From: Spirogloea muscicola | Lineage: Eukaryota > Streptophyta > Zygnematophyceae > Spirogloeales > Spirogloeaceae | Direction: 5' to 3' | Assembly (NCBI GenBank): GCA_009602725.1 | Contig: WELB01000277.1 | Span: forward strand, 22,432-64,821 | DNA: 42,390 bases | Shown here: piece after piece, positions 2,870 through 31,200 of the stretch | Position numbering within the stretch: the first letter of the stretch is position 1 | Layout: every line of letters starts with the position of its first letter | The notes under the pieces: model-generated | Seen by the model: only the letters and a program-made list of their open reading frames with translations | Told to the model about the DNA's origin: nothing | The model's database searches: none | Translations under genes and position numbers: made by a program

Positions 2870-3060
2870 CCCCGGAAAGGCGTCGGAAACAAGTGATTGC
2901 GGCTGCTGATGTCAACGATCCGGCCGTAAACTGCCAGCCAGATGCATACAGGTGTTCGTGACGGAGCCAAAGGCTAGGCAGACAGGGCGCCCTCAATACC
3001 CCCGTGTCAGCAGTAGAGAGAGAAGGCGCGCGGGGCGCATGAATTGAAAGGGAGGCCAGT
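2870..3060 (-). mobile_element. 5'-truncated non-LTR retroelement tail (B/C-like)
   Basis: Read on the minus strand, this segment repeats the one at about 27880-28080. It shares the CCTCCCTTTCAATTCATGCG module with the GC-rich palindromic stretch that follows, then CTACTGCTGACACGGGGGTA and the sequence around GGCGCCCTGTCTGCCTAG. The CTGCTGACACGGGGGTATTGA piece encodes the end of the family C-terminal signature (LLTRGY-stop). The two copies differ by scattered substitutions and by a block after the palindrome. It lies about 245 bp upstream of the RRP8-like ATG. Confidence 0.8.
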
Positions 3061-6732: not shown

Positions 6733-7373
6733 AAGGCGCGCGGGGCGCATAAAATGTACTGGAGGTCAATTCAAGCCGATACATTGTTCAGGCAGAGTCT
6801 AGGGCAAACTAAACAGGGCTACATGATATGGAGACCGAACCTAAGGTGCCTAAGGTGACATCAGTACCTACAGGTGAGCACAAACAAATCCGACAAGCTA
6901 ACCTGGGGAGCTGGAGCGCCGCCACGAAAGCCGGAGGCCTGACTTAGAGCGCGCCCTGCACGTTGATGAAGAGCCAATGCTTGCGAGCGCTGCAAACTAA
7001 GTGAGAGCCGCATTCTATGATATGCAACTAAGGCCTGCGGAATGCTGGAGTGGCCCAAGCTGCCCCCCCGACTTCGACGACGCGCATCAACCAGCCGGGC
7101 CAGATGCCGGATCAGGGAGGACCATTTTACGCCCTAGCCTCCGTAGATATCCATGGCACACGGATAAAGATGGTCCCCTCGGGGATGGTCCTGGTAGTGC
7201 CGCTCCTTCTTGCGCTCCGCGCTGGACGTGGCCCAGCCAGACACACGGGTGATGTGGGTGCGCCAGCCTTGTATGCGTCGATCAGTACCACGTCCAGGAG
7301 CAGAGGAGACGAGGCCCACCGCCCCGGGGGGTGGCGACCACGTCCAGACGCGCCGCAGGTATGCGAAGAAGAA
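6733..7373 (-). mobile_element. 5'-truncated B-type non-LTR element (endonuclease-like C terminus)
   Basis: On the minus strand this is a close copy of 30060-30600. It encodes the last part of the polyprotein: a nuclease-like stretch (TRVSGWATSSAERKKERHYQ, then CAMDIYGG) and a helical basic tail (RMRLSLSLQRSQALALHQRA, then SDLFVLTCRY-stop near 6861). The B-type 3' tail follows, ending at the GGCGCGCGGGGCGCAT palindrome near 6735. The frame is broken between the nuclease-like part and the basic tail. In element orientation it begins directly after a D-type tail (7374-7440), so it probably inserted beside that older copy. Unlike the copy at 30060, it retains the internal RMRLSLSLQRS segment. 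Confidence 0.85.
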
Positions 7374-7440
7374 AGCGCGGCCAGACGGACTGGTGGCTGG
7401 GAAAGGCCAGCTCAGAAGGATGAACAAGGTCTGAAGAAGA
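7374..7440 (-). repeat. D-type retroelement 3' tail next to the MRG gene
   Basis: On the minus strand it reads as the D tail found at 21053-21127 (-) and 22093-22167 (+): a CCTTGTTCATCC-like part, then TGGCCTTTCCCAGCCACCAG and CTGGCCGCGC. The repeat ends about 110 bp before the visible chromodomain coding sequence of the neighbouring gene. Confidence 0.8.
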
Positions 7441-10869: not shown

Positions 10870-13800
10870 TCATTTGAGTTTTAAGTGGTCACAAAGAATA
10901 CCGAGCTCAGGCCGGTGGTGCATCCAATGAGAGAAAGGCATCTGTCCTGCAAGGCTAGATCCTCCTTGGGCTATTTGTGTGTATAAGAAGCTCCGGAAGA
11001 CAATCAGGTAGCAGTACCGCCTGAGGTAGAAGAGCAGATGTGAGCCACAGGCATTAGCATTACTGCTGACATGTGGAGCAGGTAGTCATGCAACCAAAGC
11101 AGGATGATGAGCAAGTGTGCAGTTAAGAGATTATTCCAAAATTCAACCAAGTAAGCTATGCACAGCTTCAAGTATCTCCAAATTGGTGGAATAAGAAAGG
11201 GCTCGCCCATTGAGGATAGGGGCTGGAAAAGCCAGCACAGTAAAGGAATGAAACAAAGTACGAGAAGGGGGCCAGGGGAAGCACTAAGAAAAACAAGCAC
11301 ACAAAGAAACAAGGAATAAGGTGTATGCTGTAGGCACAGTAGCACATAAATCTGAGACTTGCACCTTAGGGCTTTGAGGCCCATGTCCTGGAGGTAAGCT
11401 TTATGATCCTCCTCGAAAGCTCCACAATTGTCGAGGTCCTTCTTGTACCTGTATATGTCATCCAGCAGGTTGCCAGCAGCAGCACATCTGCAACAAATTG
11501 GCCCATTCATTTTAGCAAGACTGTCCTACTAGTGGCGGGCATTGACATGAATTGTGGCTTGAATGTGAACACTCTGTAAGTGAAGGACCACGAACGTACA
11601 TGCTCCCACAGTGTGTACCTCAAAACCTCAATGCCAACAACGACCAACAAAGACTTCCCATGAGAAGCACATGTTAAAAGCAGAGACAACGTGCACCTGT
11701 GAATGATAGAATCCACTTCCAACTTGCTTGCAGGCCCATAAGGCAAGACCCTTTCAAGACTGAGCACGTCCCGGTAGTTCCCTTGCTTGTAGTCATCTGG
11801 AACTTCCCTCTTGCTGTCTGGCTGATGGCCATTCAGCAAAGCTAGTGATGAGAGGACTTCTGCCCCTCCTGCCTCTGTCTTGTGCTCCAGCTTCATGATG
11901 ACCTTTTCGTCCTGTGCATGACAGCTTGGACATGCCTGTCAGCATGGACAGGCCTACTTGTAGACCATCTCATATTTAGCATCCAAAAAACAGCCTCTGA
12001 AAACATGTCTATGCTTGAATGATCACGGCTGTTAAAAGCATTGACCTTACCATCACGTGCATACAAGATCAAAGAAGCACCCTGCATGCGACCTGTCAAA
12101 GTACAGAGGGTCATAGGAGCACACACCTTGACGCCAGGAATCCTGGCTGTTGTTTCAACAGATACGTGAAGGTCAGCAACCGCTTCTTTGCCCTTCGGAG
12201 ACAGAGTAGCATGAGCCTTGGCAGTTGTCGTGAGGCTTGCCCCATGGGGGCTCTCAACGGAAGTACGGAGTGAAGCGGAGGCTTCTAATGAGGTTGTCCA
12301 ACCCAACAACCTGGGATTTGCATCAGGACTCAATGCTGATAACTCAGCATCAGCCTGTAGTCTGACGCAGGCAATAGCCATTGCATAGGCTACACCCCCA
12401 AAGCCCGTGTGAGACACAAAGAGGTACTCAGCTTGGCTGGCCCACCTGCTCCAGAGTAGAAAGTAATTACTCTGTCAGCCTCGAATGTAGCCCATGCTAA
12501 TATGTAAATTGTGGGACTAAATGCAGCTGCTTGGTTGTTACATAAGAGAAATCAATCAACCTGCTACCTCAGGCTAGTGAGGACCACGACTTTCAGCCAA
12601 ATTGCGGCAGGCCAGAGCTCAGAGGAATGTACTCAAGCTTTTGGACTGCACTGGCTGCCAGCATGTAAAGCAAAGCTGCCAACCTGTTGAGCCGGCTTTG
12701 GATGGCATCCAAGTCAGACGGCTGGGGGAATCTCTCTCGGGTGAGCGGAACTCTCTTGTAGTCAATGAGGAAGCCCTCTTGCTTCAGAGCCAAGTATATC
12801 TCAGCAGGTGTGTACACGTCCTTGGGAGAGACACTGTCCCAGTATCCAATGACATCAGAACCCCCATGCGCCTCATTCACCACCTCCCTGTGCAGTAACA
12901 CCTGCCCGTTGTATTGTGCTGCTTCGTTCAGGATATCAGCCTTCATCCTCTCCTCCATCTCCTCGACCTGGGCACAAGGTACGCCTCTAAGATCCTGTTA
13001 GACTACAATGTCATTAGCACCAACAGGTACATAACACATGGCTAGGCTCTACCGCGCCAATTGCTGACAACCGAGAGCAAATTTATGTTGTCAAGGTAGC
13101 AAGACACAAGCACAGAAACAAGCATGAGAGGCACCAACAGTGACATCAGTGTACAGCACCCGTGGACAGAAAAGCATCAAGTGAGACAACAGCCAGGTTG
13201 TACTGGAGAAGGCACAGAAGCTCTCAGTGACTGACCACAGGGCCTTCAATGCCAACGTGCTTGTATGTAGAGACGGGCTGATTCGACTCCCTTAAGACAA
13301 AGGGCATACCATCTATGTACACAACTGCTTCTTCACGCAGGTCTGTGATGATGGTGTAATTTGCCTCTTCGCCAGCCTTTGGCGGCCGTGAATGCAGATG
13401 AGACAGAATGGCTCTGGCACCCCCTATGGTAGGAGTGGCCATACTGTGGACAGGGAACCCCTGCACCTGTTCCCACACCCACTTGACAGAAGACATGAAG
13501 GTTCCTTGATGGCCTCATTATGGATCCTGGAACCATGGGGTCCGCAACCCTGCAGACTGCCAAGGTCTTGCAGGCTGCCATAAAGGCGTCAGAGCGTTCT
13601 GAGCAGCTGTGTCGCAGACTGTTCAAGGGGTGCATATGCACCTTGCCAATGTGGGGAGCTCCGTCGATGTTGCACGAGGACATCTTGGATTGTTGACCAG
13701 GAAAGAAGTACATCTTCAGGATTGACTGCTTGCCAAGCACAGATCCTGACCGGGCTTTGACAACACCCTCCATGAGCGCATCCTCCTGCTCCATGTGCAT

Positions 13801-16800
13801 CTGCGATCTTGTGTCCACCTCCTGCAGTGCTCCACGAAACTTGGACGTCAGTGTGGCCAGCAACGCACATAGTTATGGGTTTGGATCTCTGAGCAAGATT
13901 TTAAGCCGTTTAATTTGCAGTCTTGAGACATATCAACATCAATGCTGATATGCGCAGAGGAATCATGAAGAGCAAGTGCCGTAAACACGTAACAACGTGA
14001 AATGGCCATGAGAACTGGAGCTGGCTCACTGGAACAGTGAAGACACGAGCTGGCCGGAGCCTCATGCTCCACTTCATGTGTCGAATTTCAGGCCGTCGTC
14101 TTATCCAGGCCTTGAAACTTAGGACTTCTCCCGCTGAGGCCCCTGAGCTATCGCTGCTGGGCATTCTAGGAGTTGCTGCGTCACTTCCTAAGTATGCAGC
14201 AAAGGCAATGAGCATATAATAGCGCTCCAGATACTCAATACCGCGACTGAGGGCATTACGTCTCTGTCTGTGGTCCTCCTTCTGCTGATTGAAAGTCCGT
14301 CTGTACCTCAGAATGGCCTGCCTCAGATTCTGCCACATTGACAAGGAGAATGTCTTCATCATGCAGGCTTGGACCTGTTAATGGTCCTCACCTCAACACA
14401 TATCCTGGTCAGTCATGGACCCTCCACTGGCTCTGTATTTGCAGAAAGGGAGAGCAGGAAAGTCTCAGGTCCAGTAGCAACGAGCCACGCACCTGCATCG
14501 CAGCACAGCGGTCAATGACTGCATCAAGGATCTCCCTGCTTTCAGCACCATTGTCCAGGAGCCTCGTGAGATTCCTGATTATCTGGATGTCGTCCATTGT
14601 GAAGCCTGGAATGAGGGACGGCTGCCGCATCGTGGGTGTCATGAGTGACCCAAATGAGCCCACAGACCTTCTGAGCTGCATTGGCTGATGCTTTAGAGTC
14701 CTTTCTGGCACTGCTACATCCACAGTCTCAGCCTGCTCTCTGTCCTCTTCCCTCTCTGGAACCTGAGGACGAGGGGGCTTGACTGCCAAGAGGTCAGGAG
14801 TGCTTTTAGGCAGAGCAGCCTCCGTGAAGGGACTCGCACCGCCTGGCTTATAAGACAGCCTTGGGTCCGTGTATGGCGTCTGTTGCTGCGGCGTGACTGT
14901 GCCATTCTCCTTCTCCTTGTCTTCCTCTGAGTCTGACGATGAAGTTCCCTCCACGTCCGAGGAGGCAGAAGTGAGCCTTGGCATGCACAGTGGTCGCCCG
15001 CTGGTCACTCTCATGTGGACCAGGCAGGCAATCACAGTGCCAGTTGTCGTTCTCCCTCGTCCCATCTGGCAGTTGAACACCAGCGCAGTGTCTTTCCCCG
15101 CCGGAGCAATCCTTGTGGCCAGGACGTCAAAATCGCGGCTCTTTGGTGCCTTTCCATCGGTAATGGGCACTCTCTCGTACTCGACATGGTAACCTTCGGC
15201 CTGAGCAAGCAATTTCGAAGTCGTATGCGAACAGTGAGCAGCTGACGGACCAGAGGGCACTGAGTGATTGCATGGTGGAGACTGAAAGAGCTGGCTGACT
15301 CACTTCTGAGTCTAGGCTCTGAGTCTCAGCTCTGAGTCTCAGTTCTGAGTCTGACCCTAAACTCTTCTGCGCTGAGAAGCTAAGTCTTCCACCAAGGGAT
15401 GAAACACGACATCAGCACCATCTCGTAGGTATCAGGATGCCAGGATGCCGACAGTTGCCCGGCCTTACCATGGCGACACAGCTCTCTCCCATCATCTACC
15501 CGCCTGAACCCCCTGAGGTTTTGGGGTCTGGGATTCAGGCGGGTAGATGATGGGAGAGAGCTGTGTCGCCATGGTAAGGCCGGGCAACTGTCGGCATCCT
15601 GGCATCAACCCCAAAACCTCAGCCCTACATCCTAAACCCCTTGTATGCAGTGTCAGTGGACTTTCAGCCTGCAACCATCAGGACTATAGCATAGATGGAG
15701 GAGGGTACCTGCAAGCGCTGGTACACTTCCAGTGGTGTCAGCACCGAATCTGCAGAGACAGGCTCCCACATGTCATAGATCTCCCCCGTCTCAGACTCAT
15801 GATTGACCATGATGGTGTTGTCGTACTGCGCAGCCTCCCGCAGAACGTCTTCCTTTAGGCGTGCTTCCATCTGCTCTACCCTGCCCCGATCGATGCCCTG
15901 CAAAGCAACACAATGTCGTGGCTTAAGCAGGACCCTCTCTGCTGGAGCACATGGTGGGGTGGCAAGTGAAACGACCTGCAGCTATCACTGCAAGGGACAT
16001 CCAATCAGCAAAATTATCAGGACTGAAAGGAGAGGGCCCTGAACCCACAGTATACTCCAGCATATTCTTGAAGGGCCGCTCAAGCTCGCGCAGGACAAAG
16101 GGCTTTCCATTGATGTACACGACAGGTTCTTCCCTCATGTTGTGCCAAAGAGCATTTCGCCCCCCCACTCCAGCCCCTATCCTGGCTAAAACCTCCCGGA
16201 TGCCTTCCACCGTAGGATTGGCAACCCCGTACACTAGAGACAACGAAGCAAGGCAACAGTCAGTGGCAGGCCGTCGCCCCTGCAAGCAGCAGTAGCTCCG
16301 TCGTGATGCACAACCCACCACGGCTGACTCGTCAGTGAGGACACGCAAGCTGCTGCTATTTCCTAGTTTCTTGGCCATCACTGGATACCCATTGTTACAG
16401 GTAGCAAACCATTAATAGCCTCCTGACAGGAGCGACCCCAGTTGACAAGAGTGTCAGGAGCATGCAGATCCAATTGCAAGTGTCGCGCACACTGAAGCAG
16501 CGTGCACGATCATCGAACTTTGACCTATGGGCAAGCTTCAGGCATGTTATAATTCTGTGACCAGAACAAGCAAGGCTCATAGACAAAGCCAGCCTTGTAG
16601 TCACTGCTGCATGCATGAGTTCACCAACCCATAGGCCCATTTCAGTCCAACCACAAGTTTCATACAAAACGCACAGCATGGATTGGCAATCTACAGGCTT
16701 GCATGTGTTGCAGAGGACTCGGACATCAGTGGCACCTGGAAAGCCAGCCACCTCTCGGAAGTTGGGCGCTCCATCCACTCTTTCGGGCAAATGCAGATTC

Positions 16801-19800
16801 TGACAACCCGGGCAGTGGTCACTTTTCAAGACAGTGTGTCTCCCCAGAACACCACCATCCCTAGAGCCCACAACAGTTTCCATGTCCAGCTCACGGCCCC
16901 TGACAACGTGCAGCTTCTTCTGTGGACTAATCACGCAGTATGGGCCACTGCTATAATCCAAGGCACCCATGGGATCTCTCCTAAGCAGCCTGGACTTGAC
17001 AGCCAAGAGGAGATAAATTCACGTAGATCAGGCAGGAGGACACAACCGCCTGAAGCTTGACAAAGCATGTATAAACGGGTCAGGTAGTAGTTCAGGTGCT
17101 ACTGCAGATACTCAGCATGTCTGTCAAAGTAGCCTCAGTATTACTAGCATGAGGAGTGTTGATGAAAGATGGGAGTGACAATCAGCCTCTTCCACCCACA
17201 AGCACAAGAAAATGGATCAGATAGATAGCTGACCTTCGCAGGATGCTGTAGAGCTCTGGGCGATCCTTCATCCAGGCCTGAAAACCACCCTCAATGGGTG
17301 TTTGCCCTTTCAAGCTGTAGGGATTAGTATGTAGGTATACGGCAAAACAGATGAGGAAATAATAACGCTCCAAGTATTCAACAAAGTTGCTGAGAGCTGC
17401 TTCTCTCTTCTTCTCATCGGCCTGTCTGTGGATGCCATTCCTATAGCCCAGGATGGCCTCCCGAAGATTCTGCCAATCACCACATCACCACTGGTTGCTG
17501 ATCAGCCGGACTTGGACTCTTGGCCTTCATGACTTTGCCTGAAGACAGCAGCCAGCAACCATGCTCATCTCTGCCAAGCAACCAGGGGGAGCACAACTGC
17601 AAACATAGGGATGGGGTTAGAGGCTGCTATGCTTCAGCATTCATCAGTTCTGGAGAGTCGGAAAGTGCTCACTTGCATAGCGGAGCACTTGTCAATGGCT
17701 GCATCCACGATGCGCTTGCTCTCTGCTCCACCCTATCAGAGATGAGAGTCAGCTGGACTGCGTAAGGAGGTGGCTGTCTGCGGTGTAAGAAGCTCCCACT
17801 ACAACAAACCTAAAGTAGCTACAGACAGGACTTCTGAGAAGCACAAGTGCCATTGCTCATCAGTGCCACCTCCCTAGCTACTGACACTGACCTTGTGAGG
17901 TTCAAGTGATTTGCACTTAAAGGTAAGCATGCTAACCTGGAGGACACGCGTCAGACTGCGGATGACACTGTATTCCCCCAGGCGCAGTTTCTCCTCAACG
18001 GCCTTCTGGTGCCCTTCCTCAGTCCAGAAATCATCTTTAAACGCAGCGAAGCTTTTCCGAGGCGACTCGCTATGAGCAACTGCAAGTGCCGGCGGGCTCT
18101 GCAAAGAGCGCGTCCGGCAGAGGTGGATGAGCGTGGCAACCACCATGCCTGTGGTTGTTCTGCCCCGTCCCATCTGACAATTGAAGAGCAGCCGGGTGTT
18201 GACGTCCACTTGAGCCAGTCTGTGGACCTACACCACCAAGAGGCATATCAATATTCAAATAGTGAAATCAGCAGACACCTTGCAACTGTAGTTGGTAACA
18301 AGTGGCGGCCAACAATGTTGCTCATCTGAGCAGCTCCCGCAGCTCAGAATGGGAACAACAGATGTACGCAAGAGGTCAACTCAGTGACCAACCTCGACCT
18401 CCCACGCAGCAGAGTGCAGTCATTGAAGGACACATCAGTCTTCACCACCTTGGGAGCTCCAGGTGCTACTCTTACCAGTAAGTCAAAGTCTCTTTCCTTG
18501 GGAGACTTCTCGTCTGTGACTGGCACCCTCTCGTAGTCCACTTTGTAGCCCTCTGCCTGGAGGCTCTCATAGACCTGTAATGGCACATCCCTAGGGTGGA
18601 ATTGGTTCACATTCTGAGCAACAGTCGCTAGGCTCAAGGCACTCAGGGCCTACAATCTTCCACAACTGTAGGAAGAGGCAGCTCGCTGGCAGAACAGACC
18701 TCGAGGGGCGTCTGCACGGAGTCTGGCCCGATAGGCTCCCACTGGTCTACCATCTGACCATCTGGCAGCTCGTCGCTGACCATAACTTTGTTCTTGTACC
18801 TGATGGTGCGCAGTACGTGGCAAGTCAGAAGAGAATGTTGCGCTACAGAATGTGGGAAGGGGAAGGGCCGAGTTGTCAGTAGCAAAGCGGCTGAGAGCAC
18901 GAACAACCCAAGGTGCATTCGTTGTTCAAAAAACACAGCCAGAGAAGACAGGTGTAAACAAATGGATCAGGAGTGAGAGGAGTAAAGGATGCCTTGCTGC
19001 CTCGTCGAGGACATCTTGCTTCAGCCGGCTTTCCATCTCTTCCACCCTTGCCCTGTCAATGCCCTGTTTGCAGCGGGTGCAAAGCAGCAGACACGAGACG
19101 CAGTTGCGAGGAGTGAGCTCCAGTGCCCACATGCCTGTGCACTGTGCTGCATTGCCCAGCCGCACCAGAGAGGAGCCAGCGCTGGCAGCCGCGCACCGTG
19201 TACTCAAGGTTGGAGAAGGGTCTCTCCACCTCCCGCAGCACGAAGGGCCGCCCATTGATGTAGATGACCTGGGAAGCGGCCCGACACAGGACGTAGGAGG
19301 GGATCAGAACGGCTCCACGAGCAGCCATGCCTGGTCACGATAGCGCCAGTCAGTCCGCTTCGTCCGAAGCTCGGCCGGTGCTCGCCTGGTCGCACCCACG
19401 GGGTTCGGGCGACGCTGCGATACAGACGGCTCAGCTGCATGCCAGCTTTGCAGTGGCTGCTTGCGTGTCTCACGCCCAAGGCCTGGCTGCTCAGCACCAT
19501 GGGACCGGAGCCGAGGGACCCACATTCCAGTCCCGCGCGCGGAGCCAGCAGCCCGAGCCAGGGCAGGCGGCCAAGCCAGGCCAAGCCGGGGCGGGGGGGC
19601 GGGCGCGGGCGAGGAGAGAGGCGGGGCAGGGGGAGCGAGCGGAGGAGGTGTGGGCTGGCGGTACGCACGGGCTCCTCCCGTATGTTGTGCCAGAGCGTGC
19701 GGGCGCCATCGTCGCGCGCCGTGCCCACGAAGTGGAGCACGTTGCGGATGCCCTCCACGGTGGGGATGGCGACGCCGTAGATGGGCAGGTCGTCGACCTG

Positions 19801-19965
19801 GCGGTAGTTGGGGGCACCGTCGATGTGGGGCAGGAGGCGGCGGTTCTGGCAGCCGGGGAAGTGGTCGCTCTTGAGGACGGTCTTGGCGCCCAGCACGGCG
19901 CCGCGCCGCGCCAGCAGCACCTGCTCCGGCACCTGCGCCGCCGCCGGCGACGGGGGCGGCGCCAT
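10870..19965 (-). CDS. PALD: Paladin/phytase-like phosphatase with three tandem repeats
   Basis: Cysteine-phosphatase family (PTP-like phytase type); vertebrate paladin has been reported to act on phosphoinositides. Twenty exons join in frame and give 1435 residues: 19965-19669, 19268-19197, 19063-18993, 18799-18700, 18574-18476, 18227-17937, 17732-17673, 17469-17234, 16989-16736, 16233-16049, 15897-15709, 15200-14493, 14329-14073, 13807-13642, 13466-13236, 12967-12684, 12445-12127, 11911-11697, 11487-11365, 11020-10870. Each repeat has VLKSDH(F/C)PGCQN or a variant, (V/I)YI(N/D)GxPFVLRE, and a P-loop. Repeats 1 and 2 carry FNCQMGRGRTTTG (Cys230 and Cys662, CX5R intact). Repeat 3 has FVSHTGFGGVAYA (1176-1188), which lacks both Cys and Arg. 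Repeat 2 is followed by a Ser/acidic linker (SSSDSEEDKEKENG). The architecture fits the plant homologue. Intron 3 has a GC donor. Confidence 0.93.
11196..11312 (-). mobile_element. A-type retroelement tail inserted in paladin intron 19, with target duplication
   Basis: On the minus strand this 117-bp segment matches the A-type 3' region: CTTCCCCTGGCCCCCTTCTC, a GGCTGGCTTTTCCAGCC hairpin, then CTCAATGGGCGAGCCCTTT. It is flanked by direct repeats GGAATAAG at 11188-11195 and 11313-11320. Removing the insert plus one repeat leaves a continuous intron sequence. It is a 5'-truncated insertion between exons 19 and 20 of the host gene, in the same orientation as the gene. Confidence 0.87.
15304..15355. 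repeat. 13-bp tandem repeat, four units
   Basis: Four consecutive units of the form (T/C)TCTGAGTCT(A/C/G)(G/A)(G/C), with the middle two identical (CTCTGAGTCTCAG). It lies in intron 11 of the paladin gene, about 80 bp from the long inverted repeat. Confidence 0.9.
15436..15606. repeat. Perfect 73-bp inverted repeat with 25-nt spacer
   Basis: Arms 15436-15508 and 15534-15606 are exact reverse complements over all 73 positions, with a 25-nt spacer at 15509-15533. In addition, CTGAGGTTTTGGGGT in the spacer (15513-15527) is the reverse complement of ACCCCAAAACCTCAG just outside the right arm (15608-15622). The structure lies in intron 11 of the paladin gene (15201-15708) and would be transcribed with it. 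Confidence 0.97.
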
Positions 19966-20259
19966 GGCCGCGGCGGGGCCGCCTGCAGGACCGAGACCGA
20001 GAGACGAGAGGTTGGGGGGGAGATGCGCATCTGGGGAGGGGCCTCGTGGGGCCGCACCGCCGCGTGGCGCCTCCCCCCGTCATGCCCACCACCACCGCGG
20101 GAACGCCCAGAACGAGGATCGGCACTTTCCATTGGGATCAGAAGATCACGGTGACGGGCGGTGCGAAGACCGTGAAGCTCGTCCAAGAAGATGAGAGAGG
20201 CCAGCCTGAAGAGATGGACGAACGGAGTTGCGAACAAGGCCCACTGAGCTTCCCTCTGC

Positions 20260-20846
20260 ATCGTCTTGTGTTCGGCCAACCCCGCAAGGTCCGCGACGCT
20301 CGTCGGGCACGCGGTCGCTCTGGCGGCTCGGAGTAAGGAGCGCAAGTACTCTGACCACCCTCCAGGCGATGCCTTCGCGGCACTGACCATTGACGTACAC
20401 GGGGCATTTGGCAGTGGCTGGTTGGATCTCCTCCAGCGACTTGCCCGGGAGGCCATCGAGCGGCGGCAGGGTTCGCCAGGCTTCAATGCTGCCGGCTCCC
20501 TCTCGCAGGTCTTTCGGATGTGGTTACTGAGTTAATAGTAGCTGCTTTGTTTTTTCTTGTGTGCTTGTCATTTCTGCTGCTTCGCCTTAGGGCTTCGCCT
20601 GGCTTCCCCCCCCTCTTCTTGTACTCTGTTCATTCTTTTTTGGGCTGGCTTTTCCAGCCCATATTCTCAATGGGCGAGCCCTTCTTCTTTCGGATGAGGC
20701 TGGCGGTCTCGCTGCAGCGCTCTTTGGCTCATGCGGTCCACGCGCGGGCTGGCCGTGCTATGGCTGCTGCTTCCGGGTCTCGGCAAAGTGCCGCTTCTCC
20801 TGCTCCGAGTTACTCTGATCTGCTGTTGCTCACACGTGGATACTGA
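20260..20846 (+). mobile_element. 5'-truncated non-LTR element, frame interrupted by a nested insertion
   Basis: This encodes the C-terminal region of the family polyprotein: ARSKERKYSDHPPGDAF, IDVHGAFGSGWLDLLQRLA and AAGSLSQVFRM, then after the nested insert RMRLAVSLQRSLAHAVHARA and SYSDLLLLTRGY with a stop at 20844-20846. Deleting 20521-20685 plus one 11-bp repeat restores a continuous frame from 20266 to the stop. The copy therefore had an open end when the insertion happened. It begins about 300 bp upstream of the paladin start. Confidence 0.9.
20521..20685 (+). mobile_element. Nested A-type tail insertion with 11-bp target duplication
   Basis: A 165-bp segment begins with TGGTTACTGAG, which corresponds to the last codons and stop of an A-type copy. 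It continues through the A 3' region with the hairpin GGGCTGGCTTTTCCAGCCC (20642-20660) and ends GGGCGAGCCCTTCT. Direct repeats TCTTTCGGATG flank it exactly at 20510-20520 and 20686-20696. The insert sits inside another copy of the same superfamily. Confidence 0.93.
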
Positions 20847-20899
20847 GCAGCCTTCTGCATCTCCCTCTGCACCATCTTGCACTTTGTAGTGTAGTCCTT

Positions 20900-21005
20900 T
20901 TTCAGCACCTCTTTCTTTGGCTTTGAACATTGTCCATTCTTTTTGGGTTGGCTTTTCCAGCCCCTCTTCTCAATGGGCGAGCACCTTCTTCGTTTTGTCG
21001 TATTT
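20900..21005 (+). repeat. A-type 3' tail remnant
   Basis: The segment has TTGTCCATTCTTTTTGGG, then GGTTGGCTTTTCCAGCCCC and CTTCTCAATGGGCGAGCACC, the A-type end with one change in the left hairpin arm. No clear target duplication was found. Confidence 0.75.
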
Positions 21006-21052
21006 GGCAAAAGGACTGTGGTCCTTAATCGAGCTGCTCACTCAGAGAGAAG

Positions 21053-22097
21053 GCGCGGCCAGATTGACTGGTGGCTGGGAAAGGCCAGCCCAAAGGAATG
21101 GACAAGGTCTGAAGGAGCCGGAGTACGGAGGACTAGGACTAAGACATCAGCCAGGGAACGCTCAGTAAGCTCTAGCCAAGAGATGCAAGTCTGAGTAGCT
21201 AGCCTGCGGAAAGACGTCGCCCTGACGGAAGCCGGAGGCCGCTGCCAAAGCTCGGCCTGCGCGCAAGCGAACCGCGAAGGCAAGGGACCGCTGCATCGAG
21301 ACGGCCAAACGTATACGGAAGACTTGAGCGAGGGACCCGGCGACGTTGAAGCCGGGCTGCTCGCCCTGCTGCCCGAGGCGGCGGGCCGCTACACGTCGTG
21401 CATGGCGGTGAAGCAAGTCAAGCCATTTCGTGCCAAAGGCTCCGTGCACGTTGACTGCCAGTGGAACAAACTCGTCTCCCACAGTGTGGTCCGAGTATTT
21501 CCGTTCCTTTGCGCCCGCCGCTTGGCGGACTGCGTAGCCCGCCTCCTCCGACGAGCGTTTGGCGCTGCTGGAAACAACGCAGTCAGTCGTGACAACGTCG
21601 GCGATGAGCCGAGGCCCCCCGCCGAGCGCGCTGGCGACGAGATCGGCGCGCCGGGTGTGGATGCGGCCACCCCCGCAGCGGTCGGAGGCATGATGCTGGT
21701 ATTCTCGAGTGCCACCGTGTAACCGGCCTCGACACAGATGCCAAACATCGCATTCCGCAGCAGGTCGTGTGTTCCTGTCCACTCCCCGCCCCGTGCGCGC
21801 CTGAGCATGTGAGCTCAACGATGCCGCCAACGATGCCGCGTCTGAACTGCGCTCTCCGCACTCACACTGCTGTACTCCAGTAAGGCAGGGTGGGTGAAGG
21901 CCGAGGAGGCGGTGCACCGCCATACGGAAGGCGTCATCGTGCATTCGGAGCTCGTCGTGGATTGGCAGGGCAGACAACCAAGCTGCCGCCCCTGGTGATA
22001 ATTCCGAGAGCAACTGCTCGCGCCCCCGGAGGTCGGCCGATGGCAAGAGCCCCATCGCCGTGGTGAAGGAGGCCGCATCTACCTCTGGAAGACGCAC
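21053..22097 (-). mobile_element. D-type non-LTR element, 5'-truncated, with C-terminal reading frame
   Basis: On the minus strand a frame of 311 codons (22097-21162) ends in SYSDLHLLARAY-stop and is followed by the D-type tail down to 21053. In order it shows a helical segment (PGAAAWLSALPIHDELRMHD), a CECG zinc-finger start, a nuclease-like region (GGGPRLIADVVTTD, ERKYSDHTVGDEFVPLAVNV, HGAFGTKWLDLLHRHA) and the basic tail (RLAVSMQRSLAFAVRLRAGR). Between about 21808 and 21680 the family-like sequence (HMLRRARGGEW, MFGICVEAGYTVALE) lies in another frame. Two compensating frame changes must therefore lie inside this apparently open frame. No reverse transcriptase is present. Confidence 0.87.
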
Positions 22098-22167
22098 TCC
22101 GGCTCCTTCAGACCTTGTCTACTCCTTTGGGCTGGCCTTTCCCAGCCACCAGTCAATCTGGCCGCGC
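21053..22167. repeat. Inverted pair of 75-bp D tails
   Basis: 21053-21127 (minus orientation) and 22093-22167 (plus orientation) are inverted copies that match at 72 of 75 positions. They flank the D-type frame. The sequence contains GGGCTGGCCTTTCCCAGCC. The ends lack the terminal features of a DNA transposon, so two independent tails in opposite orientation is the simpler reading. Confidence 0.88.
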
Positions 22168-22199
22168 TTTTTTCGAGAGAAGAGGGGACCTCCTTCTCT

Positions 22200-22374
22200 C
22201 GCTTCGGACATTGTCCATTCTTTTGGGGCTGGCTTTGCCAGCCCCTCTTCTCGATTTGGCCAGCACTTTCCTTTCATGGACGCCAGCCATCACCGTCGCA
22301 TCCCCGTGGGCGTCCGACCTGGCGGAGGGACCACCACGTGCCTTGTCGATGTGGTCGTCACGGGAGGCATGTGA
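22200..22374 (+). mobile_element. Retroelement tail joined to a nuclease-domain fragment
   Basis: An A/D-like tail (GACATTGTCCATTC, hairpin GGGCTGGCTTTGCCAGCCC, then GGCCAGCACTTTCC) is followed directly by a short coding fragment, RPGGGTTTCLVDVVVTGGM. That fragment resembles the GGGPRLLLDVVLIDA segment of the nuclease-like domain. It is a decayed remnant. Confidence 0.6.
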
Positions 22375-22494
22375 AGGACCCAGCGTTGACCTACGTTGCC
22401 GGCCACGCAGTGGATTGTTGACGAGCAGCGAAACTGGCGGCACTGCTTCGACCTGCTCAGCTGCAGCTATGCCCTTCTCCTGAAGAAACAGCGC

Positions 22495-22780
22495 TACCAA
22501 ATTGACTGGTGGCTGTGAGAGGCCAGCCCAAAAGAATGGACAAGGACTCTCCTCGTCTGCTCGTCAAGGGGTCCAAATGCAGATGCGCTCATGGCTGCAC
22601 ACAAGGATGAGACTAGCACAGGCTCCGGCCGGCCTCACTCGGTAGGTGGCAGCCATAGCCTGGGGGTGTGCACTGGAGCAGCACGATCGTCTCAGATTTA
22701 GGACGAGCCTAATCTGCCAGAACATCACTCACATTTTCTCTGGGCTGGCTTTTCACAGCCCTCGCCCCCTTGGAAAATGG
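22495..22780. repeat. Two more hairpin-bearing tails
   Basis: At about 22498-22552 a D-type tail lies on the minus strand (ATTGACTGGTGGCTG, then AGGCCAGCCCAAAAGAATGG). At 22738-22775 a plus-strand tail has GGGCTGGCTTTTCACAGCCC and CTCGCCCCCTTGG. Nothing recognisable lies between them. Confidence 0.65.
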
Positions 22781-23916
22781 GAAATCTAGAATGAAGAGCC
22801 AATTTCTTCCTCCTTGTGGGCCGAGTGACTAGCTGACTCGGCCCATAAGGCTGAGTAAGTTGGTCACCAAGTTCACATGCAGGTTTACCATCTTACTACA
22901 ACAAGTGGGCCCTGAGCTGCCATTCTGCCGCTTCGCAGAGCGTAGATGCACTTCAGAAGTCCTTGTGTGCACACTGGCTTTCATACCCGCCCTTACACAT
23001 CACTCCTCATTCTCTCTACATTGGCCACATCTTCTAGCTAGCGGTGAGCCCAGCAGTGGTCTATTCACCTCCTGCAGTTCCTACTCTGCTCCTCAGGCCC
23101 ACTGCCTCTCCTGGTCCTGCCAGGGATGCAGGATAACCAGAACTCTCCAGCATCAGAACCCAAGCCTGCAGCTTGCTCATCCTCGTGTCTGCTGGACTTG
23201 CGCTCATTGCAAGTGCCCTTTACTCGACACCCATCATCGCTTCTGGGCTACAGAGCTAATACTCATTCTCATCTCTCACAAGCACAGATGCCAGATGCAC
23301 GCTCTGAGCTGCTAGGCCTTACAGCCAGTCCAGCGTCAAAGGCCTCTCAGTGTTACATGCCGAGCCCCATATACTCCAGCAGGCTTGCTAAAGGTTGGTT
23401 GGCCTTTTTTGGGGCACTCTAATGCTTATCAGAGGGACCCCCTTGCTTCCGCCGATGCACCCAGTTGATAGCTTGATGCCTTGTTGCAAAATGCTAATTT
23501 ATAATCAGATTGAAAAGGGACAAGGAAGGGGGACTATGGGCTGGGAAAACCATTGCTAATCAATGCATGCCGATTGGAATGTGCTTGACGACAAGCAGCC
23601 TCTCGCCTGTCACCCGTGCAGCCTATGCTGCCCGTGCACGCTTGCGTGCCAGGAACCTCTCTCTCGCTGCGTCCAACATGTCACCACCTTCCAACTTCAC
23701 CATCTCCATTGTGAGCTGTGCTGGCAACCGCCCCTCTCTTGCGCAGGGTCCCACGTTTGCACTTGTATCACTTGCTGGCCGCCCACTGCATACGACAAGA
23801 AGCAAGCGTGCTTTACGGGTTATACATCCGTGGCATCACAAATGAGGCATTTGTATTGCGCCAGAACCAACAATGTGCGGCTGTGTGACTGGAGAAACTT
23901 GGAGCCTTGGAGCAGC
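22781..23916. other. Intergenic stretch without a recognised gene
   Basis: Open frames here, such as 22860-23315 (+), show no family motif and have no convincing exon structure. The part next to 23917 should hold the 3' UTR of the DEAH helicase gene. Confidence 0.5.
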
Positions 23917-27527
<3,611 letters not shown>

Positions 27528-27582
27528 GCGGCCTCCCCGGCTCCGCAGATGGACAACTGCAGCAGCGTTGGACATGTACCTG

Positions 27583-28080
27583 GCTGGCTGGCTTTCACAG
27601 CCCGTGCCCCCCCAATTCTTCTCTTTGGCCTCCCTTTCAATTCTCTGATCTGCGGCTGCTTAGCAGGGGTTACTGAGTGTCTCGTAGCAGCTTTGTTTCT
27701 GTTACTTAGCGCTTCCCCTGGCCCCCTTCTCGTACTCTGTTCATTCTTTTTCGGGCTGGTTATTCCAGCCCCTATTCTCAATGGGCGAGCACTTTCTTCT
27801 TTCAATTCATGCGCCCCGCGCGCCTTCTCTCTCTCTTTGGGAGAGCCACTTCTGAACAATGTATTGGCTTGAATTGGCCTCCCTTTCAATTCATGCGCCC
27901 CGCGCGCCTTCTCTCTTTGGGAGAGCCACTTCCGTTCACAGCCGCTGTTCCTTACTCAGCTCATCTGACTTCCTACTGCTGACACGGGGGTATTGAGGGC
28001 GCCCTGTCTGCCTAGCCTTTGGCTCCGTCATGAACACCTGTATGCATCTGGCTGGCATTTCACAGCCGATTCTTTCATAT
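27583..28080 (+). mobile_element. Tandem B/C-type retroelement tails upstream of the helicase gene
   Basis: A hairpin GGCTGGCTTTCACAGCC is followed by two successive units of the CCTCCCTTTCAATTCATGCG module, the GC-rich palindrome and TTTGGGAGAGCCACTTC. The first unit is split by the A insertion at 27644-27798; the second (about 27857-27931) is intact. From 27975 follows the end of a coding frame (CTGACACGGGGGTATTGA, LTRGY-stop), then the same downstream sequence as the minus copy at 2870-3060, including GGCTGGCATTTCACAGCC. The block starts about 55 bp upstream of the helicase ATG. Confidence 0.83.
27644..27798 (+). mobile_element. A-type tail insertion with 10-bp target duplication
   Basis: A 155-bp insert starts TCTGATCTGCGGCTGCTTAG (the last codons of the family frame). 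It runs through GGGTTACTGAGTG, the TTCCCCTGGCCCCCTTCTCG block and the hairpin GGGCTGGTTATTCCAGCCC (27753-27771), and ends GGGCGAGCACTTTCTT. Direct repeats CTTTCAATTC flank it at 27634-27643 and 27799-27808. The intact target sequence is present again near 27888-27897 in the neighbouring tail unit, which confirms the empty site. Confidence 0.93.
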
Positions 28081-28089
28081 CAGCAGCCG

Positions 28090-30600
28090 CTTTCTTCTTC
28101 CCGCTCTCAGGACCCCTCCACCCCCCTGCCCCAAGCCCCCCTACCCCCCTGGCTCGAGGAGTTCCAGCCCCCGACCTTGGTGGACCTCAATCCAGCAGCC
28201 CTTCGGACAGGGGTTGGTGCAGAGCCGGAAAGCAGCTGCTGGAAGGGCCTCGGGCATGCTCTTTGAACACCTTCGCGAGCTCTGGCTGGACGACGAGGCG
28301 GGTGACTTCAGTCTGCTGCACAGAGTGTGCCAAGCGGTGGCGCGCGGCCTTCTCCCACCCAAGGCCCGGGCGGCACTCACCAGCAGCACCCTGCTCGCTC
28401 TCTCCAAGCCCACCGGAGGCGTTCGACCAATTGCGATGGGCGAGGTCCTTACCCGACTGGTTTCAGAGACCCTATTCCAGCAGAACAGAGAGGCGGCGCA
28501 GCTCCACTTCTCCCCCCACCAGTTTGGTGCAGGGCTGTCTGCGGGCGCGGAGACAGTGGTTCATGGTCTACGTGTTGCCCTGGATTGCAATCCCGATTGG
28601 ATGGCCCTGTCAGTGGACGTGAAGAATGTGTTTAACAGCGTTGACAGAGGTGTCATCGCCGAGGAGCTTGCACACGCATTTTCCCTCCCTCATCCCTTTC
28701 TTCCGGTGCTCCTACGGAGCTCCCTCCCGCCTGCTTAGGGGATCGGGCACGTCACAGGTGGTCTTGCAATCCAGCACAGGCACCCGGCAGGGAGACCCTG
28801 TGGGTGGGTTCCTCTTTGCACTGGCACAGACGTTGCGTAATACGGCAGAGGCCCACCCTGCTGTGCTAATCCCAAGCTATGCCGACGACACCACCATGGT
28901 GGGACCCCCAAGCGCTGGTGGGTCACCAGCGCTTACAGCACATTGGAGCGCGAGGTCCACAGCCTCGGCCTCAACATCCGGCCCGAGAAGTGTTCAGCCT
29001 GGTCTCCAGCCGGCATCCCTCCCTCCATCAAGCTGCCGGCTGGGTGCCAGACCCACCACTCGGCATGGTGGTGCTTGGAGCCCCGTTGGGGGCTGCTGCG
29101 CATGTGGAACAAGTTGTGGAGTCCACCCTTGAGAATCATCTCCAGTCCCTCCCGGCCCTCCCGTCCTTACAGGACGCGCAGCTTGCGGTGGCCATCCTCA
29201 CCCGCTGTGTGGCCCAGCGTCCCACTTACCTGTTGCGGACTGTACCCCCCACCTCTGCTATAAGCGCCACCTACTCTACCGTGGACTCCAGACTCCAACA
29301 GGCTCTTCACGGCCTGGTGGACCATCCCAAATAATCCGCCATGCCGGCTGCCATCCTACAGTGTACCCTTCCTACCAGCAAAGGCGGCCTTGGGTGCCGT
29401 CCACTGGCTCGCCTGTCCTAAGCAGCTCACCTCGGTTGCTGGGCCCAAGTGGCCTCCACCATCTCAAGTCGCTTCATCCTGAGGGGCCAGGCTGTTTTAG
29501 CACCCGCTATAGCGGGTGTTGCAACAGGGAACCTGCCCTTCCAGCTTTCCCTAAGCGCAGCACTGCATGACCTCTCGCGCTCTTTACCAACACTTGCAGA
29601 GGGTCATGCAGATTTTGCGGCATGGGCACGCTGTTCTGACAGGAAAGCGCAGGCGCACTACACTCACGCTGCGGACATACAGGCCGCCTCTGAATTGAAG
29701 GGACTGCTCAAGGACGATGGACGTGGCCTCACCCGGCTCCTTTCCTTCAGCTCCCCGGGCGCGTCTGAGTGGCTGAACGCTCTGTCGATATACGAGTCCC
29801 TTCGGCTCACAGACAACCTGTTCCGCACAGCTCTCCACCACCTCGGCCTCCCCCCCCCCTGGCTTGACTGGAATCCGCCAGTGCGAGTGTGGCCACATTT
29901 CCTATGACAAGCTCGATCTAGCTGCTCATATGCTGAGATGTGTTGAGGGGGGTGAGCGCATTGCCTCCCACGACTTACCAGGGACACTATGTTTGGAATT
30001 GTGCGAGAGGCGGGGTATCATCCGGCGATGGAGGTGTCCGGCATCATGCCAATCTCCTCAAGGCGCGGCAAGCCATACGTGCGACGTCTGGACGTGGTCG
30101 CCAACCCCCGGGGCGGTGGGCCTCGTCTGCTCCTGGACGTGGTACTGATCGATGCATACAAGGCTGGCGCACCCACGTCAACCGTCTCTGGCTGGGCCAC
30201 GTCCAGCGCGGAGTGCAAGAAGGAGCGGCACTACCAGGACCATCCCCGAGGGGACCATCTTCATCTGTGTGCCATGGATATCTATGGAGGCTACAACGTA
30301 AAATGGTCCTCCCTGATTCAGCATCTGGCCCGGCTGGTTGATGCGCGTACTCGCAAGCATTGGCTCTTCATCAACGTGCAGGGCGCGCTCTAAGTCAGGC
30401 CTCCGGCTTTCGTGGCGGCGCTACACCTCCCCAAGTTTGCTCGTCGGATTTGTTTGTGCTCACCCGTGGGTACTGATGTCACCTTAGGCACCTTACTTTA
30501 GGTCTCCGTATTATGTAGCCCTCATTATCATTAAGTTTGCCCTATACTCTGCCTGAACAATGTATCGGCTTGAATTGGCCTCCATTTCATTTCATGCGCG
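28090..30600 (+). mobile_element. Non-LTR retrotransposon with reverse transcriptase, zinc finger and nuclease-like C terminus (B type, decayed)
   Basis: Longest copy in the window. Reverse transcriptase motifs in order: LALSKPTGGVRPIAMGE (about 28395-28445), VDVKNVFNSVDR (28612-28648), TGTRQGDPVGGFLFALA (28771-28821) and YADD (28878-28889), followed by a thumb-like helical region. A CECGH...HMLRC zinc-finger-like stretch lies at about 29882-29942. Next comes a restriction-endonuclease-like region (GGGPRLLLDVVLIDA, KKERHYQDHPRGDHLHLCAM, DIYGGYNVKW) and SDLFVLTRGY-stop near 30476. The B tail runs to about 30600. A C-terminal endonuclease after the RT suggests the R2/NeSL-like groups, but clade assignment is inference. 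Frame breaks near 28260, 28735, 28925, 29090, 29335, 29890 and 30395 show it is dead. It lacks the N-terminal part. Confidence 0.9.
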
Positions 30601-31200
30601 CCCCCCGCGCCTTCCCCCCCTTCCTCTTTGTGCTCACCAGTGGCCGCGCTTTCTCACATGGGGCGCTGGGCGCTCGGTGGCTCGAGCTGCTCACCCAGCT
30701 CGCCCGCCACACCATCGCCCGGCGCTTCCATGGAGAGCCGGTAGACTTCCCTGCAGCCGGGTCGCGGGCGCAAGTGTATCGAATGCGCCTGGCCGTCTCG
30801 CTGCAGAGGTCCATGGCCCGGGCGCTGCACCTTCGTGCCGGCAGAGCCCTCGCTGCTGCCTCTGGCTCTGGCCAGGGGACCCACTTCCAGGAGCCCAGCA
30901 TCTCTGATCTGCGGCTGCTTGGCAGGGGTTACTGAGTGTCTCGTAGCTGCTTTGTTTCTGTTTCTTAGCGCTTCCCCTGGCCCCATTCTCGTACTCTGTT
31001 CATTCTTTTTCGGGCTGGTTGTTCCAGCCCCCATTCTCAATGGGCGAGCACTTTCTTTCTCACCAGTGGGTACTGATGTCACCTTAGGCACCTTGGTTTC
31101 GGTTTCCGTATTCTGTAGCCCTGTTTAGTTAGACTCTGCCTGAACAACGTGTCGGCTTGAATTGGCCTCCATTTCATTTCATGCGCCCCGCGCGCCTTGC
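30600..31200 (+). mobile_element. Second B-type tail, split by an A-type insertion
   Basis: After the first B tail, a second B copy retains only its last few codons (LFVLTSGY-stop) and its 3' region (GTACTGATGTCACCTTAGGC through TTGAATTGGCCTCCATTTC to the GC palindrome near 31190). The coding end is split between 30643 and 31059 by an A-type copy. The tail ends about 315 bp before the SFH start codon. Confidence 0.87.
30644..31058 (+). mobile_element. A-type insertion of 415 bp with 11-bp target duplication
   Basis: The insert encodes the last ~95 residues of the A polyprotein: HGALGARWLELLTQLARHTI, then RMRLAVSLQRSMARALHLRA and SISDLRLLGRGY with its stop at 30933-30935. The A 3' region follows with hairpin GGGCTGGTTGTTCCAGCCC (31012-31030) and end GGGCGAGCACTTTCTTT. 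Direct repeats CTCACCAGTGG flank it at 30633-30643 and 31059-31069. Without it the B copy reads LFVLTSGY-stop. The open C-terminal frame suggests this is among the youngest copies. Confidence 0.93.

Follow-up and report, generated by a model that had tools for sequence, protein, structure and literature searches.

According to the available parts of the source papers, R2 was not found outside animals in a 2016 survey (PMC5035012), and animals are known to carry R2-like elements that are not site-specific, namely the R2NS families (PMC5035012) and the cockroach BLAG elements (PMC7650587), the latter having one or two zinc fingers and a 3′ UTR of 132–241 bp (PMC7650587). The same kind of partial source describes end-to-end template jumping by the R2 reverse transcriptase (RT) (PMC12203849, PMC2881922) and the development of R2 proteins for RNA-templated gene insertion, where their site choice matters. 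Among other long interspersed elements (LINEs), complementarity between the nicked target and the RNA tail is described as shaping the start of reverse transcription in L1 'snap-velcro' priming (PMC3649969), and stringent-type LINEs are described as recognizing a 3′ stem-loop, as in ZfL2 (PMC4176376) and plant L1 (PMC3747384). LINEs of the RandI/Dualen type are listed for green algae (PMC3747384), and a LINE group with both APE and RLE nucleases has been described (PMC3636483), again as far as the consulted parts of these papers go.

Here we analysed a 42,390-nt stretch of DNA from the zygnematophyte Spirogloea muscicola (the window), in which short inserts with a common 3′ end are flanked by direct repeats. 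The reading that we favour, with a probability of roughly 85%, is that these inserts are 5′-truncated copies of a dispersed single-ORF LINE, encoding zinc-finger-like stretches, an RT and a block that looks RLE-type, inserted by the mechanism proposed below. As in the R2NS and BLAG elements, so far as these are described in the parts available, R2-like proteins go with insertion at unrelated sites; the BLAG families have 3–6 copies each in that account, whereas thousands of 3′ ends are present here. The accessible parts of both descriptions (PMC5035012, PMC7650587) make no mention of a pyrimidine tail or of tail–target pairing. With the stringent-type LINEs, as partly described, the LINE here shares a conserved 3′ stem-loop near a short tail; ZfL2 and plant L1 belong, however, to other clades (L2 and L1). 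Tail–target complementarity at priming is the point of likeness to 'snap-velcro' L1, judged from the portion of that report at hand. L1 primes its poly(A) on T-tracts and has an APE-type nuclease, whereas here a CUUUCUUCU tail meets pyrimidine targets and the protein is RLE-like.

The features of the window on which the analysis rests are the following.

11188–11195 and 11313–11320: target duplication of copy 1, GGAATAAG (CTTATTCC in element orientation), read directly
11196–11312, minus strand: copy 1, 5′-truncated LINE of 117 bp with the 3′ end GGGCGAGCCCTTT, read directly
20510–20520 (left) and 20686–20696 (right): target duplication of copy 2, TCTTTCGGATG, read directly
20521–20685, plus strand: copy 2, 5′-truncated LINE of 165 bp, inside an older element that belongs to the same group
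20972–20982, plus strand: fifth copy, the 3′ terminus of the older element that hosts copy 2, followed by the tail ACCTTCTTC
21162–22118, minus strand: remnant of the C-terminal part of an ORF from a related family, containing the block RRADLV...DVVTTD...K..KY and without a Pfam match
27634–27643 (left) and 27799–27808 (right): target duplication of copy 3, CTTTCAATTC, read directly
27644–27798, plus strand: copy 3, 5′-truncated LINE of 155 bp
27875–27916, plus strand: paralogous empty site of copy 3 (second paralog at 3017–3058, minus strand)
28034–28735, plus strand: RT fragment from a related family in the same LINE group (RVT_1 match at E 0.0017, short of the Pfam cut-off)
30633–30643 (left) and 31059–31069 (right): target duplication of copy 4, CTCACCAGTGG, read directly
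30644–31058, plus strand: copy 4, 5′-truncated LINE of 415 bp, made up of about 14 bp of filler, the ORF end and the 3′ UTR
31005–31058, plus strand: 3′ module of copy 4, with the hairpin GGGCTGG-TTGTT-CCAGCCC, a spacer, GGGCGAGC and the pyrimidine tail

A sequence-only reading of the window had proposed four inserts with different 5′ ends, nearly one 3′ end and exact flanking duplications of 8–11 bp. Direct reading bears out the positions and strands of all four, the duplications at their coordinates and the combination of differing 5′ ends with a common 3′ end; the set itself was incomplete, as a fifth copy, with its 3′ end at 20982, had been missed. The end motif AATGGGCGAGC has five exact occurrences in the window and one with a single mismatch, and none of 100 shuffles reached six; the exact occurrence at 20972–20982 is part of the older element interrupted by copy 2. 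Paralogous uninserted sequence, from the window itself or from fetched loci, served as empty sites and supports three of the four duplications (copies 2, 3 and 4); copy 1 is not in the set of rows whose empty site is known. The duplication of copy 2 is backed by the uninterrupted element at two loci (L050 and L061), and that of copy 3 by the window paralogs at 27875–27916 and 3017–3058 (minus strand). For copy 4 the empty sites lie at 30430–30480 and on the reverse strand of 6840–6930, deviating from the 11-bp duplication at one and two bases, respectively. A 9-bp duplication, CTTTCTCAC, is also compatible with the copy 4 junction and was set aside, since the paralogous empty sites favour 11 bp.

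Beyond the window, we scanned the 153-Mb genome (471 contigs) with the 16-mer 3′ end TTCTCAATGGGCGAGC and obtained 2,758 matches (1,393 forward, 1,365 reverse), compared with none for the reversed 16-mer pattern. Scattered copies number in the thousands through the genome of this photosynthetic organism. That genome contains 68 matches to the chlorophyll a/b-binding family; of two such proteins compared with the PDB, one matched light-harvesting proteins broadly, an LHCI-2 chain being the best, and the other was far nearer to a group of Lhca4/P4 chains (E 5e-80 to 2e-64), which come from land plants, than to the chains ranked after them (4e-54), as suits a green-lineage and probably streptophyte host. 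As a sample we took 100 of these places, consecutive through contigs C1 and C2 and the start of C3; all were selected by an intact 16-mer, so that only that 3′ end is represented. For the duplication test, 5′ boundaries were placed by homology to other copies, and 3′ flanks swapped between rows provided the control. The test covered 96 of 105 rows (91 sampled and five from the window), six having been omitted for want of a boundary and three for exceeding the fetched flank. In 25 of the 96 rows a duplication no shorter than 8 bp lay at the boundary, as against 3.2% in the swapped control; with a threshold of 9 bp the count was 20, as against 1.5%. Some of the 25 arise from matching within tails or nested elements, for which the swapped control was intended to allow; in this count window copy 2 was given a wrong boundary, its true duplication therefore going uncounted, and the row ending at 20982 was counted through a match within the copy 2 tail. 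The other 71 rows show no such duplication, probably owing to their age, to errors in placing the boundary or to repeats nested in one another. A stricter test, restricted to bases after the tail and omitting ten further rows whose 5′ flank has runs of N, gave 17 duplications in 86 rows against 1.5 expected, the 17 including copy 4 through its alternative 9-bp duplication. Flanking repeats no more frequent than chance had been named as grounds for abandoning the proposal, and an excess over the controls was seen instead. An earlier search for repeats of at least 9 bp anywhere within 800 bp upstream (38 of 100, against 19.9% in mismatched pairs) was replaced by these boundary-anchored tests because repeats inflate its control. 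Fifteen full-length candidates were fetched as 5′/3′ pairs, with the anchor readable at its expected place for nine 5′ ends, ten 3′ ends and both ends of five; three of the eight full-length copies that were read at both ends have a duplication of at least 7 bp near the 5′ end (GAAACAAA, CTTTTGA and TCTTCTGG; a raw, uncontrolled count). At ten loci (L008, L010, L018, L019, L035, L051, L054, L055, L064 and L072) runs of N stop at the called 5′ boundary, which suggests assembly gaps, or withheld sequence, at these LINE copies.

The sequence-only reading had also suggested that the CT-type starts of the duplications could provide primer microhomology to the tail. In 37 of the 105 rows the 3′ flank was a repeat with uninserted copies, so that the pre-insertion sequence was known. 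At these junctions the target overlapped its own tail by a mean of 1.68 nt, with at least 2 nt in 20 of the 37 (some of the 37 insertions have a common target site, which makes the effective number slightly lower), compared with 0.33 nt, and at least 2 nt in 6.9%, at random window positions; ten of the 37 had no overlap. The alternative that survives best is ordinary target-primed reverse transcription in which the CT-rich target start reflects endonuclease preference alone, the tail being merely target-like and idle in priming; it differs from our explanation solely in the tail-priming step. Targets permuted among the insertions already overlap the tail by 1.00 nt, with at least 2 nt in 12 of 37, and 15 of the 37 targets have CT as their last two bases before the junction. 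To some extent the CT signal is a preference common to the targets, and an endonuclease by itself could produce that. However, own targets fit their own tails better than permuted ones do (1.68 against 1.00 nt; p 0.0002), the microhomology thus passing the empty-site test, and 12 of the 17 strict duplications extend at least 2 nt into the tail, as against 27 of 127 chance matches. The permuted baseline and the excess of own targets together imply a common pyrimidine preference plus an insertion-specific match; the latter is as expected if the RNA tail pairs with the nicked DNA, and is supported statistically. We therefore regard the endonuclease-only explanation as possible and rather improbable.

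The source element is represented by three fetched full-length copies with 99.7–99.95% identity over about 4.1 kb, each containing a single stop-to-stop frame of 1338–1357 aa (a ~1,340-aa ORF). A Pfam search at E values up to 1 listed five families, RVT_1 (8.5e-16) and four zinc-finger models; two zinc-finger-like stretches can be read in the ORF, of which Pfam matches one (residues 303–323), below its cut-off. At the same limit (E up to 1), Pfam gave no match to an APE endonuclease and none to a nuclease domain in the ORF. Homologous RT frames are numerous, with 150 scored among 1,825 candidates genome-wide, and the RT fragment at 28034–28735 has many matching frames elsewhere in the genome. 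A C-terminal CxC...HxxxC is present in 18 of 20 fetched regions and, together with RRxDxV, DVV..D and K, is invariant across 14 aligned members from several families. This motif block presumably resembles the R2 endonuclease region and looks like a restriction-like (RLE-type) nuclease, a label given on motif evidence alone because PDB searches with the C-terminal region by itself, by sequence and by profile, found no R2 structure or other relative; the fold predicted for the C-terminal ORF remnant in the window has a mean pLDDT of only 37.5. An RT-encoding source element and, among the 16-mer-selected copies, 5′ truncation, a common 3′ end and target duplication are all present, as befits a LINE. 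Two sets of full-length copies on different contigs (L081, L108 and L132; L082 and L120) have identical 5′ flanks over at least 315 or 346 bp; their 3′ flanks nonetheless differ (L081 from L132, L082 from L120), and 5′ transduction, recombination or assembly error may be the cause.

A PDB sequence search with the whole protein (E up to 0.01) returned only three matches, all of them R2 proteins matched through the RT (E ~1e-6), the LINE being a putative relative of R2. The element resembles R2 in having one ORF, 5′ truncation, sampled ends without poly(A) and an RT that, among proteins of known structure, matches R2 only by sequence comparison, and perhaps also in its N-terminal zinc-finger-like stretches and its C-terminal CxC...HxxxC with a nuclease-like block. 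R2, however, occupies one site in 28S rDNA, the insertion that characterizes its clade, whereas the LINE here is dispersed, with duplications at many unrelated target sequences, and its host is photosynthetic. RandI/Dualen LINEs contain an RLE, and we take the group with both nucleases to be Dualen. The green-lineage host is shared with them, to judge from the part of the survey consulted; Dualen/RandI membership, which goes with APE plus RLE, was rejected, as Pfam found no APE in the ORF.

The 3′ end of the sampled copies is common without being a single base. Downstream of GAGC the 100 copies are conserved through ACTTTCTTCT, fray from position 8 and then pass into background, with agreement of 92, 76, 71, 64 and 41% at positions 7, 8, 9, 10 and 11. 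The claim of an exact 3′ terminus thus stands as to the common end and needs refining as to its precision. Scattered 3′ ends, the other ground named for abandoning the proposal, were looked for among 16-mer-bearing copies, in which the end frays over about four bases. The 5′ boundary was callable in 94 of the 100 copies; measured as far as GAGC, these have a median of 147.5 bp, compared with about 4.1 kb for the full element; 89 of the 94 are shorter than 300 bp and three reach at least 770 bp. So many short copies with one common 3′ end could be SINEs, that is, independent small RNAs borrowing the LINE 3′ end. The 5′ ends are spread, however, with 73 distinct positions among the 91 shorter copies, the longer copies are collinear with the LINE 3′ UTR and ORF, and an ARAGORN scan of the window gave no tRNA; on these grounds we rejected this reading as very improbable. 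Across the genome, too, 16-mer-bearing copies are thus truncated to various extents at the 5′ side and end alike at the 3′ side.

In related families the 3′ end consists of a GC-rich block and then a tail similar to CTTTCTTCT, in most cases with a hairpin before them. In the CTGGCCGCGC family (16 places fetched; 1,862 exact 19-mers genome-wide) the pyrimidine run is TTTCTT, TTCCT or similar, and a variant stands behind an ORF of the same LINE group at locus L099. A second LINE family, with the end CCAGTCAATCTGGCCGCGC and likewise counted at 1,862 exact 19-mers across the genome, has exact 3′ ends in the window at 21053–21071 (minus strand) and 22149–22167 (plus strand) and a variant end at 7368–7439. 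Four copies of a TATGGGCGAGC+CTTC end lie behind an ORF of the same LINE group, two copies have a GCGCGCC+TTTCTC end, and a CAGCCGC end is followed by a pyrimidine run in three of six copies. The GGGAGAGCCAC+TTCTTC end (14 fetched; 1,567 exact 20-mers) has a similar hairpin, without a link to an ORF. Boundary repeats of at least 7 bp, in counts that are uncontrolled, occur in 12 of 29 rows of the CTGGCCGCGC type, nine of the 12 starting with CT, and in five of 18 of the GGGAGAGCCAC type, one starting with CT and two with TCT. The tails may be alike across families because of the target, common descent being the alternative. The conserved hairpin lies about 25 nt from the element end: its stem has all seven base pairs in 75 of 110 distinct 62-base ends in ATGGGCGAGC, compared with 30 of 550 shuffles, with little covariation, the arms being identical in 55 of the 110. 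No poly(A) was found at the sampled 3′ ends, and Rfam gave no match at the gathering threshold. A hairpin at this distance from a fixed 3′ end also recalls Helitron-type or DNA-transposon remnants, a reading that we consider next to negligible in view of the variable 5′ ends, the encoded reverse transcriptase and target duplications that exceed the swapped control, Helitrons making none.

Two junctions contain additional bases. In copy 4, about 14 bases, CCGCGCTTTCTCAC (30644–30657), appear to be filler that separates the duplication from the element; they open with CCGCGCTTTCT, which resembles the 3′ end of the CTGGCCGCGC family, and 39 other full-length-scored copies begin at insert base 12 (30655). 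At a full-length copy on contig C195 (locus L114), 19 bases stand between the duplication GAAACAAA and the main-family 5′ end; compared by eye, they match the CTGGCCGCGC family 3′ end save for one base. Both fillers match what end-to-end template jumping would leave, which makes such jumps possible, two cases being no proof.

Target-primed reverse transcription of the inserts is well supported: its hallmark, as put forward for the window, of variable 5′ truncation, a common 3′ end and duplications recurs genome-wide, and full-length copies that encode an RT exist. In the mechanism we propose, the protein would bind the 3′ end of its own RNA, probably via the conserved hairpin, and would nick pyrimidine-rich DNA, which is observed as the target bias. 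The RNA tail ACUUUCUUCU may then pair by a few bases with the freed DNA 3′ end, a step for which the support is statistical and by which the tail would have a share in setting the landing site, as the insertion sites suggest; reverse transcription would usually stop early, since most inserts are shorter than 300 bp, and a second-strand cut downstream would yield the duplications of about 7–12 bp seen at the junctions. More tentatively, and rather doubtfully as a whole, these elements may be an RLE-only, R2-like lineage in a green-lineage host that lost site-specificity and took up RNA-guided targeting instead. Its families would independently have kept or acquired the CUUUCUUCU tail since it pairs with nicked pyrimidine DNA, their differing hairpin-bearing 3′ ends would serve for protein recognition, with occasional jumps to sister RNAs producing chimeras.

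The kind of element is already known, and the combination looks new within the literature covered, in which no RLE-only LINE with a pyrimidine tail was found in the green lineage; most subscription papers and Repbase lay outside that scope. If the RLE assignment is true, RLE-only LINEs are placed in the green lineage. With thousands of natural insertions and many empty sites, the shares of protein recognition and RNA–DNA pairing in targeting become measurable.

Two other features of the window may be recorded. A reading frame at 14412–15299 (minus strand) with a PTPlike_phytase domain (1.3e-23) is probably a host gene, and positions 15436–15606 hold an inverted repeat of 77 bp whose arms are 99% complementary and lie 17 bp apart.
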